In this document: positions 16,319 through 27,532 of the stretch, piece by piece
How positions within the stretch are numbered: position 1 is the stretch's first letter
Layout: every line of letters begins with the position of its first letter
Source: a virus
Virus record (IMG/VR): IMGVR_UViG_3300046454_000336
Coordinates: 1 to 35,549 of that record
Length of the DNA stretch: 35,549 nt
Reading direction: 5' to 3' (one strand)
The notes under the pieces: generated by a model
Seen by the model: only the letters and a program-made list of their open reading frames with translations
The model's database searches: none
What the model was told of the DNA's origin: nothing
Position numbers and translations under genes: made by a program

Positions 16319-16737
16319 AATACATCTGGGATGCCGAGCGTCAGGAGTTTGTTCCCAAAGAGCGAAAGGCTTCCGATCTCCACTATGTGCAGGGTGATCT
16401 TGAAGAGTTTCGCAATACCGATGGCACGATGATCGGCGGTCGCCGCCAATGGCGGGAGCATTTGAAATCCACCGATACGATTGAAATGACCGCGAAAGAT
16501 TTGCAGCTCAGCCGCGAACGGTGGAACAGTCGAAAGGCGGATTTTCAGGATCGGATTCGGCCTTCGGAGAAGTCGGGAGTGCGCCCCGTGAATGTCGATG
16601 TGATGAGTGCGCCCGACCCACAGGCATCGTTAATTCAGCGTGAAGTGATGAATCGTCTTGACGGACGCCCCACACCTGAACGTAAGATGCTCATTAAGAT
16701 GACATTGGATGCCGCACGCATGCTGAGGGGACGATGA
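16315..16737 (+). CDS. Conserved phage head-region protein
   Basis: 140 residues. The opening (MKYIWDAERQEFVPKE, then D-L-H-Y-V-Q-G-D-L) and the I-G-G-R-R-Q-W-R-E-H-L block (41-51) match from memory a family of small podoviral proteins usually encoded just before the scaffold and capsid genes; its role is unknown. It is hydrophilic and mostly helical. The stop overlaps the ATG of the inserted endonuclease gene. Confidence 0.65.
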   Translation: MKYIWDAERQEFVPKERKASDLHYVQGDLEEFRNTDGTMIGGRRQWREHLKSTDTIEMTAKDLQLSRERWNSRKADFQDRIRPSEKSGVRPVNVDVMSAPDPQASLIQREVMNRLDGRPTPERKMLIKMTLDAARMLRGR

Positions 16738-17144
16738 AGAGAGGTCCAAAGCCGTTAGAGAAATGTATTTTAGCCGGTCATAATATGGCGGAGACCAGAA
16801 GATTTGTACCGAGTGGAAAATCGTTCTGCTCTCTTTGTAAAAAGGCGAGACCTCGATGGAAAGAGAAACTAAAGCGAGACAAAGAAGCCGTAAGAAAGAT
16901 GAAATTGAAAGCAAAATGGGGATTAACAATTGATGCTTTCAATGAAATGCTTGAAAAGCAGAATCACAAATGCGCGATTTGTCTCACCGATAATTGGGGA
17001 ACCCCCAATGCAGCGGTGGATCACAATCATGAAACTGGGAAAATTAGAGGCTTACTTTGTAGGAGATGTAATATCGTCCTTGGGATGTATGAAGATAATT
17101 TGGATCTGTTTCAGAAATCCATTTCATATTTGAAGCAGAACTAA
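16734..17144 (+). CDS. Endonuclease VII-type HNH nuclease, free-standing mobile gene
   Basis: 136 residues. Zinc cysteines at C-S-L-C (32-35), C-A-I-C (80-83) and C-R-R-C (109-112) surround the active motif D-H-N-H-E-T-G-K-I-R-G-L-L-C (96-109), the signature of recombination endonuclease VII-family HNH proteins. The gene is visibly richer in A+T than its neighbours and sits between conserved head genes, as expected of a free-standing homing endonuclease. A junction-resolving role as in T4 gp49 is the alternative. ATG at 16734 overlaps the previous stop (ATGA). Confidence 0.85.
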   Translation: MKRGPKPLEKCILAGHNMAETRRFVPSGKSFCSLCKKARPRWKEKLKRDKEAVRKMKLKAKWGLTIDAFNEMLEKQNHKCAICLTDNWGTPNAAVDHNHETGKIRGLLCRRCNIVLGMYEDNLDLFQKSISYLKQN

Positions 17145-17257: not shown

Positions 17258-18343
17258 ATGTCCACAGTCGAAAATCCAACCGCCATCGAAACACCATCCG
17301 CCACTCCGCCACCGTCAACTCCCGCGCCTTCTGCTCCTGCTGTGGACACCCCTTCTGCGCCGCCGCTCGATGTCACCAATCGCCGCGATGTGATTGTTGC
17401 CGCGATGAAGAATCCCATCCCGCGATCCGAACGGCCACGCGATCCGACTGGAAAGTTTCTACCCCTTGCGGGGGTGCCGACCTCTCCCGTGCCGGCCTCT
17501 CCTTTCCCGACACCTGCGGCACCCCGCGCCCCCATGCCCAAAGCCCTGAAGATGGAACTCCAGCCGCACTGGGATGCGGCTCCCGATGAACTGCGTCAAG
17601 CCATCATCCAACGCGAAGCCGATTCCGAACGTGGCATCCAGCCGCTTAAGGAAAAAGCCCGTCAGGCCGATGAGTTCATGCAGGTCTTTGGCCCCTATCA
17701 GGACATGATCCGCAACGAAGGCGGCACGCCCACGGGCGCGATGACCGAACTGTTAAGGACTGCCGCGATCTTCCGGTCCAACAATCCGGGACTCAAGGCG
17801 CAGGCCATCGCCGCCATCATGCGGCAATATCAAATTCCGCTGGAGCATATCCAGTCGATGCTGAGCAACAACTCAGCGCCCAGCGTTCTCTCTCCGCAGC
17901 CACAACTGTCGGGGATCGATCCGCAGCAAATCAGCCAACTTGTTCATCAAGAGCTGTCGGCCTTTCAGCAACAACAACTCGATGCGCAGAGCCAATCGGA
18001 AGTCGATCGCTTTGCCAGCAATCCCGAACACAAGTATTTCACCGATGTTCAGGACTGGATGGCAAGCCTGATGACTTCAGAAAAATTCGTCACAGCGAAT
18101 CAAGGCAAGACTCCGCAAGAGAAGCTACAGGCCGCTTATGAGACCGCCCTCCGCGTGGACCCGGAAATACATAACCGATACCTGGCTGAACAACAGGCAG
18201 GTGAAAAAGCGCGGCAACAGGTGGCCTCTGCCAAAAATGCGGCGGTGCAGGTGAAAGGCGCTCCCGCGTCTGGTCCTGCTCCAAAACCGAATCCTACAGA
18301 CCGACGGGCTGTGATCGCGAATGCGTTTCGCACCAATCGGTAG
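17258..18343 (+). CDS. Capsid scaffolding protein
   Basis: 361 residues; AGGAG lies just upstream of the ATG. The N-terminal 95 residues are Pro/Ala/Ser/Thr-rich and disordered. Then comes PKALKMELQPHWDAAPDELR (94-113) and R-E-A-D-S-E-R-G-I-Q, the signature of podoviral scaffolds, with helical and Gln-rich C-terminal parts ending in basic residues (RRAVIANAFRTNR) that could contact the capsid protein. It would template prohead assembly and then leave. Its place directly before the capsid gene agrees. Confidence 0.8.
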   Translation: MSTVENPTAIETPSATPPPSTPAPSAPAVDTPSAPPLDVTNRRDVIVAAMKNPIPRSERPRDPTGKFLPLAGVPTSPVPASPFPTPAAPRAPMPKALKMELQPHWDAAPDELRQAIIQREADSERGIQPLKEKARQADEFMQVFGPYQDMIRNEGGTPTGAMTELLRTAAIFRSNNPGLKAQAIAAIMRQYQIPLEHIQSMLSNNSAPSVLSPQPQLSGIDPQQISQLVHQELSAFQQQQLDAQSQSEVDRFASNPEHKYFTDVQDWMASLMTSEKFVTANQGKTPQEKLQAAYETALRVDPEIHNRYLAEQQAGEKARQQVASAKNAAVQVKGAPASGPAPKPNPTDRRAVIANAFRTNR

Positions 18344-18352
18344 GAGTATCCC

Positions 18353-18433
18353 ATGAGTTTTGCGAATAGTAATTACTCGGACATACTCGCGACAACGATC
18401 GAAAGTCGATCAGGAGTTATTGCAGATAACGTT
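18353..18433 (+). CDS. Major capsid protein, exon 1
   Basis: 27 codons beginning MSFANSNYSDILATTIESRS, the conserved N-terminus of a podoviral major capsid family (N-S-x-Y-S-D-I-x-A-T-T-I). TAGGAG lies just upstream. Read straight on, the frame meets TAA at 18434-18436, but that TAA is the first triplet of the intron. The last six bases AACGTT (18428-18433) pair with GACGTT in the intron to form P1, with the U-G pair at the splice site. Exon 1 joins exon 2 at 19141, giving A-D-N-V-R-K-N-N-A-L-L. Confidence 0.85.
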
Positions 18434-19140
18434 TAAATTATGGACGTTGTAAAATTGGGTGAATTCGGTGAACGCTGAAATGCCAATACCGAGCCAAGCT
18501 GCGGACCTGAAATGTCGCAGAAGGTGTAACGACTAGATGGTGACGAAAGAATAATCCATCCACGAGCGCCCAACATTTGTTCGAAACCAGAGAGGAGAAT
18601 TCCGAATGGTAAAAATTTACGCGATTGAGAATACGAGGAACTATAAAGGCTATGTGGGCTGCACAGCCGGAAAAATACAAAAGAGATGGCGAGAACATCG
18701 CTGCCTCTTGCGTGCCGGAAAGCATCAATGCCGCAAGCTTCAACAAGATTGGGATGAAATGGGGGAGGAGCGATTCAGAATCATTGAATTGGATGAATTG
18801 CCGCCCGGATCATCCGTCCTCGATAAGCGGATTGCAGAATTGGGTTGGATGCGAATTACGAAAGAACAGCATGGGCTGTATAACGAATTCGAGATTTCAT
18901 TCCAACCCCCGCCGGGATTCCATGATAAGGCCATCGCCTCTCGAAAAGCTAATGGCTATAAACCGACTCCCGAATCGAATCTCAAGCGTCGATTGGCCCA
19001 GCTTGGAATCCCAAAAGGACATGGCGCGAAAATCAGCGCAACCAAGCAAGCGCGTAAAAACAAGTGATGAGATAGTCTGCTCTGCATCGAATCGAAAGAT
19101 GCAGAAGTCGGGGATAAAGAGCCTCGGCGATAACACCAAG
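18434..19140 (+). mobile_element. Group I intron in the major capsid gene
   Basis: 707 bases. P1: ATAACGTT (18426-18433) with GACGTTGT (18443-18450), the U-G pair being 18433/18443. P10: exon 2 CGTAA (19141-19145) with TTATG (18438-18442). P4: ATACC (18486-18490) with GGTGT (18523-18527). P6: CTGCG (18499-18503) with CGCAG (18516-18520). P7: GACTA (18531-18535) with TAGTC (19073-19077). P8: CATTTGTT (18574-18581) with AACAAGTG (19059-19066). P9: TCTGCATC (19081-19088) with GATGCAGA (19098-19105). Intron ends in G. The GATAGTCTGCTCTGCAT block resembles the 3' core of the T4 td intron, so subgroup IA2 is likely. The loop of P8 carries a GIY-YIG gene. Confidence 0.9.
18606..19067 (+). CDS. GIY-YIG homing endonuclease encoded in the intron
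   Basis: 153 residues; GAGGAG lies upstream of the ATG at 18606. The GIY-YIG domain is at the N-terminus: K-I-Y-A-I (3-7), G-Y-V-G-C (15-19, a YVG form of YIG), catalytic-type Arg in K-R-W-R-E-H-R (26-32) and the metal-binding-type Glu in I-A-E-L-G-W (about 78). The C-terminal third (PESNLKRRLAQLGIPKGHGA) is basic, as in NUMOD-type DNA-binding tails. It should cut intronless capsid genes and so spread the intron. Its last codons (AAC AAG TGA) also form the 3' strand of P8. Confidence 0.9.
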   Translation: MVKIYAIENTRNYKGYVGCTAGKIQKRWREHRCLLRAGKHQCRKLQQDWDEMGEERFRIIELDELPPGSSVLDKRIAELGWMRITKEQHGLYNEFEISFQPPPGFHDKAIASRKANGYKPTPESNLKRRLAQLGIPKGHGAKISATKQARKNK

Positions 19141-20037
19141 CGTAAGAACAATGCACTCCTGACGCGGCTCAAGGAACGTGGACGCGAGAAGACCTTTTCG
19201 GGTGGTTCGACCATCTTGCAAGAGTTGTCATTCCAGCCCAATTCCACCGCCATGTATTACAGCGGCGCGGAAACATTGAACATTTCTCCTGCGGATGTGA
19301 TTTCCGCAGCGCAGTTCCCGATCAAGCAGGCCGCCTGCGCGGTCACGATCACCGGATTGGAAGAACTCCAGAATGCCAGTGAAGAGGCCATCATTGACCT
19401 GTTCGATGCCCGTTTGGACGTGGCCGAAGGATCAATGGAAAATCTCATCACGACTGGAATCTATTCCGATGGCACGGGTTCCTCCGGCAAGCAGATTACC
19501 GGAATCCAGGCCATGCTGACCACGACCGCATCCGGCGTGGTGGGCGGCATCGATAAAGGCACATGGTCGTTCTGGGCCAATCAGGTCACGGACTTCTCTG
19601 CCGATATCGGATCTTCGGCACTCGCAACGACCATCAATGCAGGCTTCAACAACCTGTATGCGAAAACGTCTCGCGGGTCCGATGTGGTCGATCTGATTCT
19701 GGTGGACAACTTCTACTGGTCGATGTACATGGCCTACCTCCAGAACATCCAGCGGTTCACGACCGATTCCAAGATGGCCGATTTGGGATTTGTCGCGGTG
19801 AAACACATGAACGCGGATGTCGTGCTCGACGGCGGTATCGGCGGGAACATCCCGACCCATACCGGCTATTTCTTGAACACGAAGTACATTTTCTTCCGGC
19901 CCCATTCCAAGCGGAATTTCGTTCCGATTGGCGATGACCGGATGAGTACCAATCAGGATGCGATTGTGCGCTTGATTGGATGGGCGGGTAACATGACAGC
20001 CTCGGGACTCCAGTTCCAAGGCATTTTGGTGGAATAA
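19141..20037 (+). CDS. Major capsid protein, exon 2
   Basis: 298 codons and a stop; with exon 1 the protein has 325 residues. It begins RKNNALLTRLKERG, then K-T-F-S-G-G-S-T-I-L-Q-E-L-S-F, D-V-I-S-A-A-Q-F-P-I-K-Q-A-A-C-A-V-T-I-T-G-L-E, Y-S-D-G-T-G and the V-G-G-I-D-K-G-T-W-S-F-W block, matching a podoviral HK97/P22-fold capsid family. The open frame continues upstream into the intron, but those codons are intron and not capsid. Position after the scaffold gene is as expected. Confidence 0.9.
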   Translation, partial: RKNNALLTRLKERGREKTFSGGSTILQELSFQPNSTAMYYSGAETLNISPADVISAAQFPIKQAACAVTITGLEELQNASEEAIIDLFDARLDVAEGSMENLITTGIYSDGTGSSGKQITGIQAMLTTTASGVVGGIDKGTWSFWANQVTDFSADIGSSALATTINAGFNNLYAKTSRGSDVVDLILVDNFYWSMYMAYLQNIQRFTTDSKMADLGFVAVKHMNADVVLDGGIGGNIPTHTGYFLNTKYIFFRPHSKRNFVPIGDDRMSTNQDAIVRLIGWAGNMTASGLQFQGILVE

Positions 20038-26165: not shown

Positions 26166-27080
26166 ATGGCTTACACGTTGCTGCAACTGGTCGATCAATC
26201 CTCGGGAGAGATGGGATTGCTTCAACCCGCATCCGTGATTGGATCGTCCGCCAACCAGACGATTCAAATGCTGGCATTGGTGCAGCGATTGGGCAAAGAC
26301 CTGATTCGGGAGTTCGAATGGAACAAGGCGGTCAAAGCCTATATCTTCCAGACCACCGCCGCGACCGTCCTGACGGGCACGACCACGAGCGCATCGAAAG
26401 TCGTGACAGGGCTATCCAGCACGACTGCCCTTTCGGTGGGCAATGTCATCACGGGCACGGGCATTCTCGCCTATACCGAAATTGCCTCGATTGATTCTTC
26501 CACCCAGATCACGATGAATGTTCCAGCTACAGCTTCGGGTTCGGTCAGCCTGACTTTTGCCGTGCAGGATTATGCGATGCCGACCGATTACGACCGGATG
26601 ATCTCGGATACGAACTGGGACCGCACGAATCACTGGCGCAATCTGGGAACGAAGTCCTCGCAGGAGTGGCAGACGCTTCAGGGCGGTCTGATCTCGACTG
26701 GTCCGCGTGAACGCTATCGGATTTACAACGGCAACATGCGGATCTTCACCGCCGTCACATCCTCGCTGAATATCTCATTCGAATATGTCTCACGATTCTG
26801 GGTGCTGGCCTCCGGGGGGACGGCGGCAACGAAATCGGAGTTTTCTCTCGATTCCGATACCTGCATCTTCCACGACAACCTCATGACGGCGGGGCTGAAA
26901 TACTATTTTCTCCGTGCCAAGAAGCTCGACTTCATTGCGGAGATGATGGAATTTCAGGAAATCCTCTCCGCCTGCAAGGCTCAGGATGTGCCGCAGCCGA
27001 CACAGAGTTTGGCACCGGAAGCCATTCCGCCTTATGTGGGGCCGTGGTCGGTGCCTGACGGATCGTGGCCAACTCAATGA
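26166..27080 (+). CDS. Head-to-tail adaptor / tail tubular A-type protein with an Ig-like insert
   Basis: 304 residues. Helical N- and C-terminal parts (QMLALVQRLGKDLIREFEW; MEFQEILSACKAQD) enclose a Thr/Ser-rich beta insert (about 60-130: TTTSASKVVTGLSSTTALSV onwards), as in many podoviral adaptors with an Ig-like domain. The Y-A-M-P-T-D-Y-D-R motif (137-145) is typical of this family. It would sit between portal and nozzle. The end overlaps the start of the HNH gene by four bases (ATGA). Confidence 0.75.
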   Translation: MAYTLLQLVDQSSGEMGLLQPASVIGSSANQTIQMLALVQRLGKDLIREFEWNKAVKAYIFQTTAATVLTGTTTSASKVVTGLSSTTALSVGNVITGTGILAYTEIASIDSSTQITMNVPATASGSVSLTFAVQDYAMPTDYDRMISDTNWDRTNHWRNLGTKSSQEWQTLQGGLISTGPRERYRIYNGNMRIFTAVTSSLNISFEYVSRFWVLASGGTAATKSEFSLDSDTCIFHDNLMTAGLKYYFLRAKKLDFIAEMMEFQEILSACKAQDVPQPTQSLAPEAIPPYVGPWSVPDGSWPTQ

Positions 27081-27532
27081 CAACAAAGCACTTAGCACTA
27101 GCACCTGAAATCAGATTCGAACGATTCATTGAGAAGATTCCATTCTCCGAATGTTGGATTTGGACTGGTCAGACCATGAACAGCGGTTATGGGAACTTTG
27201 GCATTGCAAAGCATGTCTCCGATGGTGCTCATCGCTATTCCTATCGGATCTATAAGGGTGAAATTCCCGAAGGGCTATTTGTCTGTCATACCTGCAATGA
27301 AAAGCTGTGCGTTAATCCCCGCCATCTCTATGCGGCCACTTGTCTACAAAATACCCGCGATGCCCAGCGAGATAATCTGCTCGCAAAGCAATTAAATCCC
27401 GAAAAAGTCTTAACAATTCGACGACTTCGCAAAGAAGGCTGGAAGCAAAAAGCCATTGCCAGAGAAGTTGGTTGCGGAAAATCAATGATCCAGTTTGTAT
27501 TAAGCGGTCATTCTTGGTCCCACATCCAATGA
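27077..27532 (+). CDS. HNH endonuclease inserted between adaptor and nozzle genes
   Basis: 151 residues from the ATG at 27077. HNH_3-type motifs: W-I-W-T-G (27-31), G-A-H-R-Y-S-Y (50-56), V-C-H-T-C (69-73) and C-V-N-P-R-H-L (78-84). The C-terminal 40 residues contain a helix-turn-helix (RLRKEGWKQKAIAREVGCGK) likely to position it on DNA. It is richer in A+T than its neighbours. Both junctions are ATGA overlaps (27077-27080 and 27529-27532), so it sits in the reading order without disturbing either neighbour. Free-standing homing endonuclease. Confidence 0.85.
   Translation: MTTKHLALAPEIRFERFIEKIPFSECWIWTGQTMNSGYGNFGIAKHVSDGAHRYSYRIYKGEIPEGLFVCHTCNEKLCVNPRHLYAATCLQNTRDAQRDNLLAKQLNPEKVLTIRRLRKEGWKQKAIAREVGCGKSMIQFVLSGHSWSHIQ

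Follow-up and report, generated by a model that had tools for sequence, protein, structure and literature searches.

Organization of the interrupted capsid gene

The window analyzed here, a 35,549-nucleotide (35.5-kb) IMG/VR virus record that comes from a public collection without reads, contains a major capsid gene that is interrupted close to its 5′ end. The capsid ATG lies at 18353 and is followed by 27 codons up to 18433, where an in-frame TAA (18434–18436) ends the frame. The insert that begins with this stop codon comprises 707 bases (18434–19140, final base G19140) and splits the gene after codon 27; the capsid frame restarts at 19141 (CGT AAG AAC) and reaches its stop at 20037. The following features were located at gene level.

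18342–18346, AGGAG ahead of capsid exon 1
18353–18433, + strand, capsid exon 1, 27 codons, MSFANSNYSDILATTIESRSGVIADNV; N-terminus continuous in 80/80 closest relatives
18434–19140, + strand, predicted group I intron, 707 nt, opening with an in-frame TAA and ending in G; RF00028 match, 36 homologous introns, covariation
18592–18597, + strand, Shine-Dalgarno GAGGAG of the endonuclease gene, 8 bases ahead of its ATG
18606–19067, + strand, GIY-YIG homing endonuclease, 153 aa, within the P8 loop; Pfam, PHROG and I-TevI matches
19141–20037, + strand, capsid exon 2, 298 codons and stop; PHROG 9953 match, HK97 fold in an intronless relative

Exon 2 matched PHROG 9953 (major head protein) at 5e-89, with the match beginning at position 30 of the 329-position profile; about 29 residues are therefore absent ahead of exon 2, which is what one would expect of a protein whose N-terminus comes from exon 1. 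A model of the intronless relative L001, built by AlphaFold2 with 36 relatives (mean pLDDT 74), resembled the capsid of cyanophage A-1(L) (Z 20.8) and that of HK97 (1ohg, Z 15.9). Judged by this profile match and by the modeled fold, the product is an HK97-fold major capsid protein. In the L001 model, residues 27 and 28, which flank the junction, lie at the beginning of the aligned fold, and residues 1–23 have low confidence. The initial annotation, which had described a major capsid gene split after 27 codons by a stop and 707 bases and then resumed, was thus right about the host gene and exact in its coordinates.

Empty sites and the splice junction

The interruption is absent from the closest relatives: the stretch ...ADNV-T-KNNALL is unbroken in 80/80 of the closest IMG/VR capsids, whereas the window has ADNV, the 707 bases and then RKNNALL. 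A wider set of 320 capsid loci was collected with the window's query and three further capsid queries; 306 were uninterrupted (...ADNV-T/S-KNNALL), nine carried the intron, corresponding to an occupancy of about 3%, and the other five were at an edge or broken. Capsid relatives, which might have held an extra segment at this position, thus showed the clean gap that the initial annotation had counted on.

We also compared 36 distinct introns with both exons, including that of the window. In all of them the insertion follows the GTT of ..DNV, and the intron, whose last base is G, is followed by ACN or TCN, the window alone having CGT. A U·G pair at the 5′ splice site and the final G were common to all 36 introns kept; the final G served as a filter in this set, having already been seen before filtering. 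Near the end of the insert, as read from the sequence, 19141 is the sole in-frame junction that has a preceding G and adds no residues. These empty sites and the shared junction support the splice proposed initially, 18433 joined to 19141, and the predicted spliced junction would read GAUAACGUU joined to CGUAAGAAC in the window and ..GUU joined to ACN in relatives. The Arg codon at 19141–19143 is peculiar to the window, as Thr or Ser occupies this position in 304/306 intronless and 35/35 other intron-bearing loci.

In two contigs, L478 and L479, the capsid N-terminus and body were found in different frames near the DNV junction, apparently owing to a one-base difference.

Structure of the intron RNA

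The insert aligned with the full Rfam group I intron model RF00028 (positions 1–253) at 46.7 bits and E=1.3e-10, and relatives scored higher (L224, 72 bits; L237, 66 bits; L232, 61 bits). The insert falls just below the curated cut-off of 50 bits, and a scan of the whole window at that cut-off gave no match; the covariance-model check proposed in the initial annotation was accordingly positive by E-value and not by the curated cut-off alone. The structural elements assigned to the RNA, all on the + strand, are listed below with their conservation in an alignment of 18 introns.

18426–18433/18443–18450, P1, AUAACGUU / GACGUUGU, spanning the 5′ splice site, with U18433·G18443; 98% paired
18438–18442/19141–19145, possible P10, 5 bp
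18455–18461/18567–18573, P3, 7 bp; 99% paired, four pairs with compensatory change
18465–18492, P4/P5 domain (18465–18470/18487–18492 and 18474–18475/18482–18483); P4 100% paired, four compensatory pairs
18493–18525, P6/P6a, 9 bp; 100% paired, compensatory change in 8/9 pairs
18529–18536, P7 5′ strand, ACGACUAG, with its 3′ strand AUAGUCU at 19072–19078; invariant
18536–18560, small stem between P7 and P3, GAUG/CAUC; 100% paired, three compensatory pairs
18574–18580/19060–19066, P8; 92% paired, compensatory change in 7/7 pairs, 3′ strand within the last codons of the endonuclease
19083–19103, P9, UGCAUC/GAUGCA; 90% paired, compensatory change in 6/6 pairs
19107–19128, P9.1-like stem, GUCGGGG/CCUCGGC; 95% paired, five compensatory pairs

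For this alignment the cores of 18 distinct introns were used, pairing and compensatory changes were counted, and the 3′ partners were slid as a control. Predicted pair cells were paired in 96.6% of cases versus 34–42% in the slid controls, compensatory changes occurred in 39/57 pairs versus 10–18, and further pair types numbered 98 versus 39–44, all for a structure that was derived from the same alignment and is favored by it. The differences in P3, P6, P8, P9 and P9.1 are too large to be explained by that alone. P7 carries no covariation information because it is invariant. Taken together with the RF00028 match, the covariation upholds the original assignment to group I, and, as far as can be judged from sequence, the RNA of the insert is almost certainly a group I intron that splices itself out.

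P1 is present as originally drawn, including its closing U·G pair. The 5-bp P10 drawn with it likewise exists in the window, but most of the family has 0–1 bp there, and we rejected P10 as a family feature. We presume that the GAUG/CAUC stem between P7 and P3 is P7.1, which would suggest subgroup IA, and the intron probably belongs to this subgroup. IA2 is the subtype of more than half of the viral group I introns that have been catalogued (PMC11835236). The motif AGGTGTAACGACTAG was considered as a family marker and discarded, being too common in group I introns among the matches listed.

The intron-encoded endonuclease

The open reading frame in the P8 loop matched PF01541 (1.5e-7) and a PHROG homing endonuclease (4.5e-10), and a six-member family profile matched the I-TevI catalytic domain 1mk0 (E=2.2e-10). 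The family keeps I4-Y5, Y16, G18, R27, R29, H31, K39-H40, E78 and N93 as well as the C-terminal block GIPKGHGAKISATK. The window's frame is intact and has the invariant residues I4-Y5, Y16, G18, R27, H31, H40, E78 and N93, in agreement with its earlier identification as a GIY-YIG homing endonuclease. We regard cleavage of the intronless allele and the promotion of homing as the inferred function of this protein.

Relatives have GAGGAG or GAGGGG at the equivalent place ahead of the endonuclease gene. A search for a hairpin that would hide this ribosome-binding site gave a local fold no better than shuffled sequences (z=1.05). The TGA stop (19065–19067) falls in the 3′ strand of P8, so that, as had been noticed before, the end of the gene also serves the ribozyme; since P8 covaries in all seven pairs, the end of the frame is constrained by the ribozyme. 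Endonuclease-free forms of the intron measure 233–295 nt, and L224, L232 and L238 are members without the endonuclease.

Distribution of the intron

The P1 sequence pattern was used to search viral and bacterial genome contigs. It was found in 65 viral contigs (IMG/VR), 52 with capsid exon 1 at the site, and in 40 bacterial genome contigs (MAGs), four with capsid exon 1 at the site (L267, L286, L289 and L291; labels Caulobacterales, beta proteobacterium, Sulfuricaulis and Latescibacterota). Matches that lacked a capsid exon (13/65 viral and 36/40 genome contigs) were set aside as probable chance occurrences or other sites. The identical codon junction is therefore occupied in 52 IMG/VR and four MAG contigs, whose capsids are down to 33% identical to that of the window. 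The search of isolate phages gave none whose capsid gene contains the intron core, and isolate phages with a related capsid, such as Stenotrophomonas phage BUCT555 and Myxococcus phages Mx8 and Mx9, matched at 25–55% identity.

When presence or absence of the intron was mapped onto a 102-row capsid tree, 16 changes were required, at least 11 of which were forced by strong branches; shuffled labels required about 20. Core identity correlated weakly with capsid identity (Spearman 0.26): the cores of the window and L245, for example, are 77% shared, while the capsids are 38% identical. The intron core tree had little support, with 2/15 inner branches starred. The scattered occupancy on the capsid tree and the weak correlation between core and capsid favor repeated movement into one conserved capsid site, with losses, over vertical descent, a pattern that would fit homing.

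Discussion

The element is very probably a mobile group I intron, likely of subgroup IA, that sits between codons 27 and 28 of an HK97-fold capsid gene, splices itself and spreads by endonuclease-driven homing. The RNA structure, the exact empty sites, the shared insertion point, the scattered distribution and the intact GIY-YIG motif residues, which are all seen directly, point to splicing, cleavage and homing. The capsid transcript would fold into the P1–P9 core, guanosine would attack after U18433, and the freed exon would then attack after G19140, giving the full-length capsid frame with V27 joined to R28. As a stop codon stands at the very beginning of the intron, an unspliced transcript would yield a 27-residue peptide only. 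The endonuclease would be translated separately, using the ribosome-binding site within the P8 loop, and would cut intronless capsid alleles of co-infecting phages near the conserved junction, after which repair would copy the intron in. Several observations count against this explanation, namely the score of the window just below the curated Rfam cut-off, the lack of conservation of P10, the Arg that the spliced product would carry at a Thr/Ser position and the poor resolution of the intron core tree.

Other explanations must account for the same observations. The capsid gene could be split without any splicing, exon 2 being translated from an internal start in the insert and exon 1 being a relic. 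The window itself lends this some plausibility, as a frame of 470 codons starting at TTG 18625 stays open as far as the capsid stop and the frame ahead of exon 2 has 176 codons without a stop. However, that frame is closed within 2–47 codons in 32/36 introns and exon 1 is conserved in sequence in intron-bearing loci, for which reasons we rejected an internal start for exon 2. Moreover, intron length varies in reading phase, in the window no Shine-Dalgarno sequence accompanies any of the four start codons closest to exon 2, and the covarying group I core would be left unexplained, which makes such an arrangement highly improbable. Even less credible is a non-working insert, produced either by misassembly or by an unrelated endonuclease that has inserted into the capsid gene and killed it: the window is a public record without reads, but dozens of separate contigs carry this element with identical boundaries, and its ribozyme core covaries.

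A less remote alternative is that the intron splices but is immobile, the endonuclease being inactive and the distribution reflecting vertical inheritance or ongoing loss. The low occupancy of capsid loci and the members that have no endonuclease would fit this. On the other hand, the window's GIY-YIG frame is intact with the invariant residues of its family, and the distribution on the capsid tree requires many gains or losses. We therefore consider immobility unlikely and retain the mobile intron as the preferred reading.

The architecture of the element is, we assume, similar to that of the T4 td intron with I-TevI. Both endonucleases are intron-encoded, and the GIY-YIG family profile matches the I-TevI domain; the T4 td intron interrupts thymidylate synthase, whereas the host gene in the window encodes the capsid and the open reading frame has 153 aa. 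Phage group I introns sit mostly in DNA-metabolism genes (PMC12908238), which bears out the initial remark that a capsid gene is a less usual host, and capsid cases exist (PMC3706429). The capsid-gene intron of the Cluster J mycobacteriophage LittleE, most likely group I, was shown to splice in vivo by RT-PCR and N-terminal sequencing (PMC3706429). It resembles the present intron in carrying a homing-endonuclease frame within a major capsid gene and in having U before the 5′ splice site and a final G (PMC3706429). It differs in its length (about 820 nt) and position (nucleotide 496 of the gene, versus codon 27 in the window), in its endonuclease, which is on the opposite strand and described as LAGLIDADG-like, and in its presence in 1/6 Cluster J phages, compared with many capsid lineages for the window's family (PMC3706429). 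Lactococcal phage Tuc2009 also has a capsid-gene intron, as cited in PMC3706429. Many group I introns occur in the genes of Jug phages, with splicing of some supported by metatranscriptomes; the accessible part of that report places them in terL and nrdD, describes split DNA polymerase genes as well, and reports no capsid-site family (PMC12363816).

Since LittleE, and Tuc2009 as cited, carry capsid-gene introns, the kind of element is already known, including capsid-gene group I introns with endonucleases; what is unusual is how widely a single element occurs at one capsid junction. We found no paper describing this family among open-licence papers, and a widespread capsid-junction intron family apparently remains undescribed. 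As a tentative proposal, on which we place distinctly less confidence, a single intron–endonuclease lineage may have specialized on one capsid codon junction and, with an occupancy of about 3%, may move between tailed phages that have diverged widely, and its endonuclease may be used as a weapon that targets the capsid genes of rival phages during co-infection. For comparison, interference with a co-infecting phage has been reported for an intron endonuclease of phage PhiPA3 (PMC11620839).

An intron at this position demands very efficient splicing, since few phage genes are expressed as heavily as the capsid gene. Across many phages the family offers occupied, empty and endonuclease-free alleles of a single site, a natural series in which homing, loss and endonuclease decay can be compared directly. 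Gene annotation of intron-bearing phages will overlook where the capsid gene really begins.

Other endonuclease and intron-like loci

Two further endonuclease genes were observed in the window. An Endonuclease VII-like gene (16734–17141; PF02945 3e-24, PHROG 2914) lies just before the gene that precedes the capsid gene, and an HNH endonuclease with a helix-turn-helix end is encoded at 27065–27529 (PF13392 1e-7; PHROG 826 7e-25). The latter is apparently a second homing-type endonuclease and free-standing. In Bacillus phage SP-15 (KT624200), a stretch at 1801–1919 of locus L545 shares 80.7% DNA identity with a 111-nt part of the window's intron core and lies 51 bases after the annotated end of the RecA gene. 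This stretch, which gave no Rfam match at the curated cut-off, is a possible unannotated group I intron beside recA.
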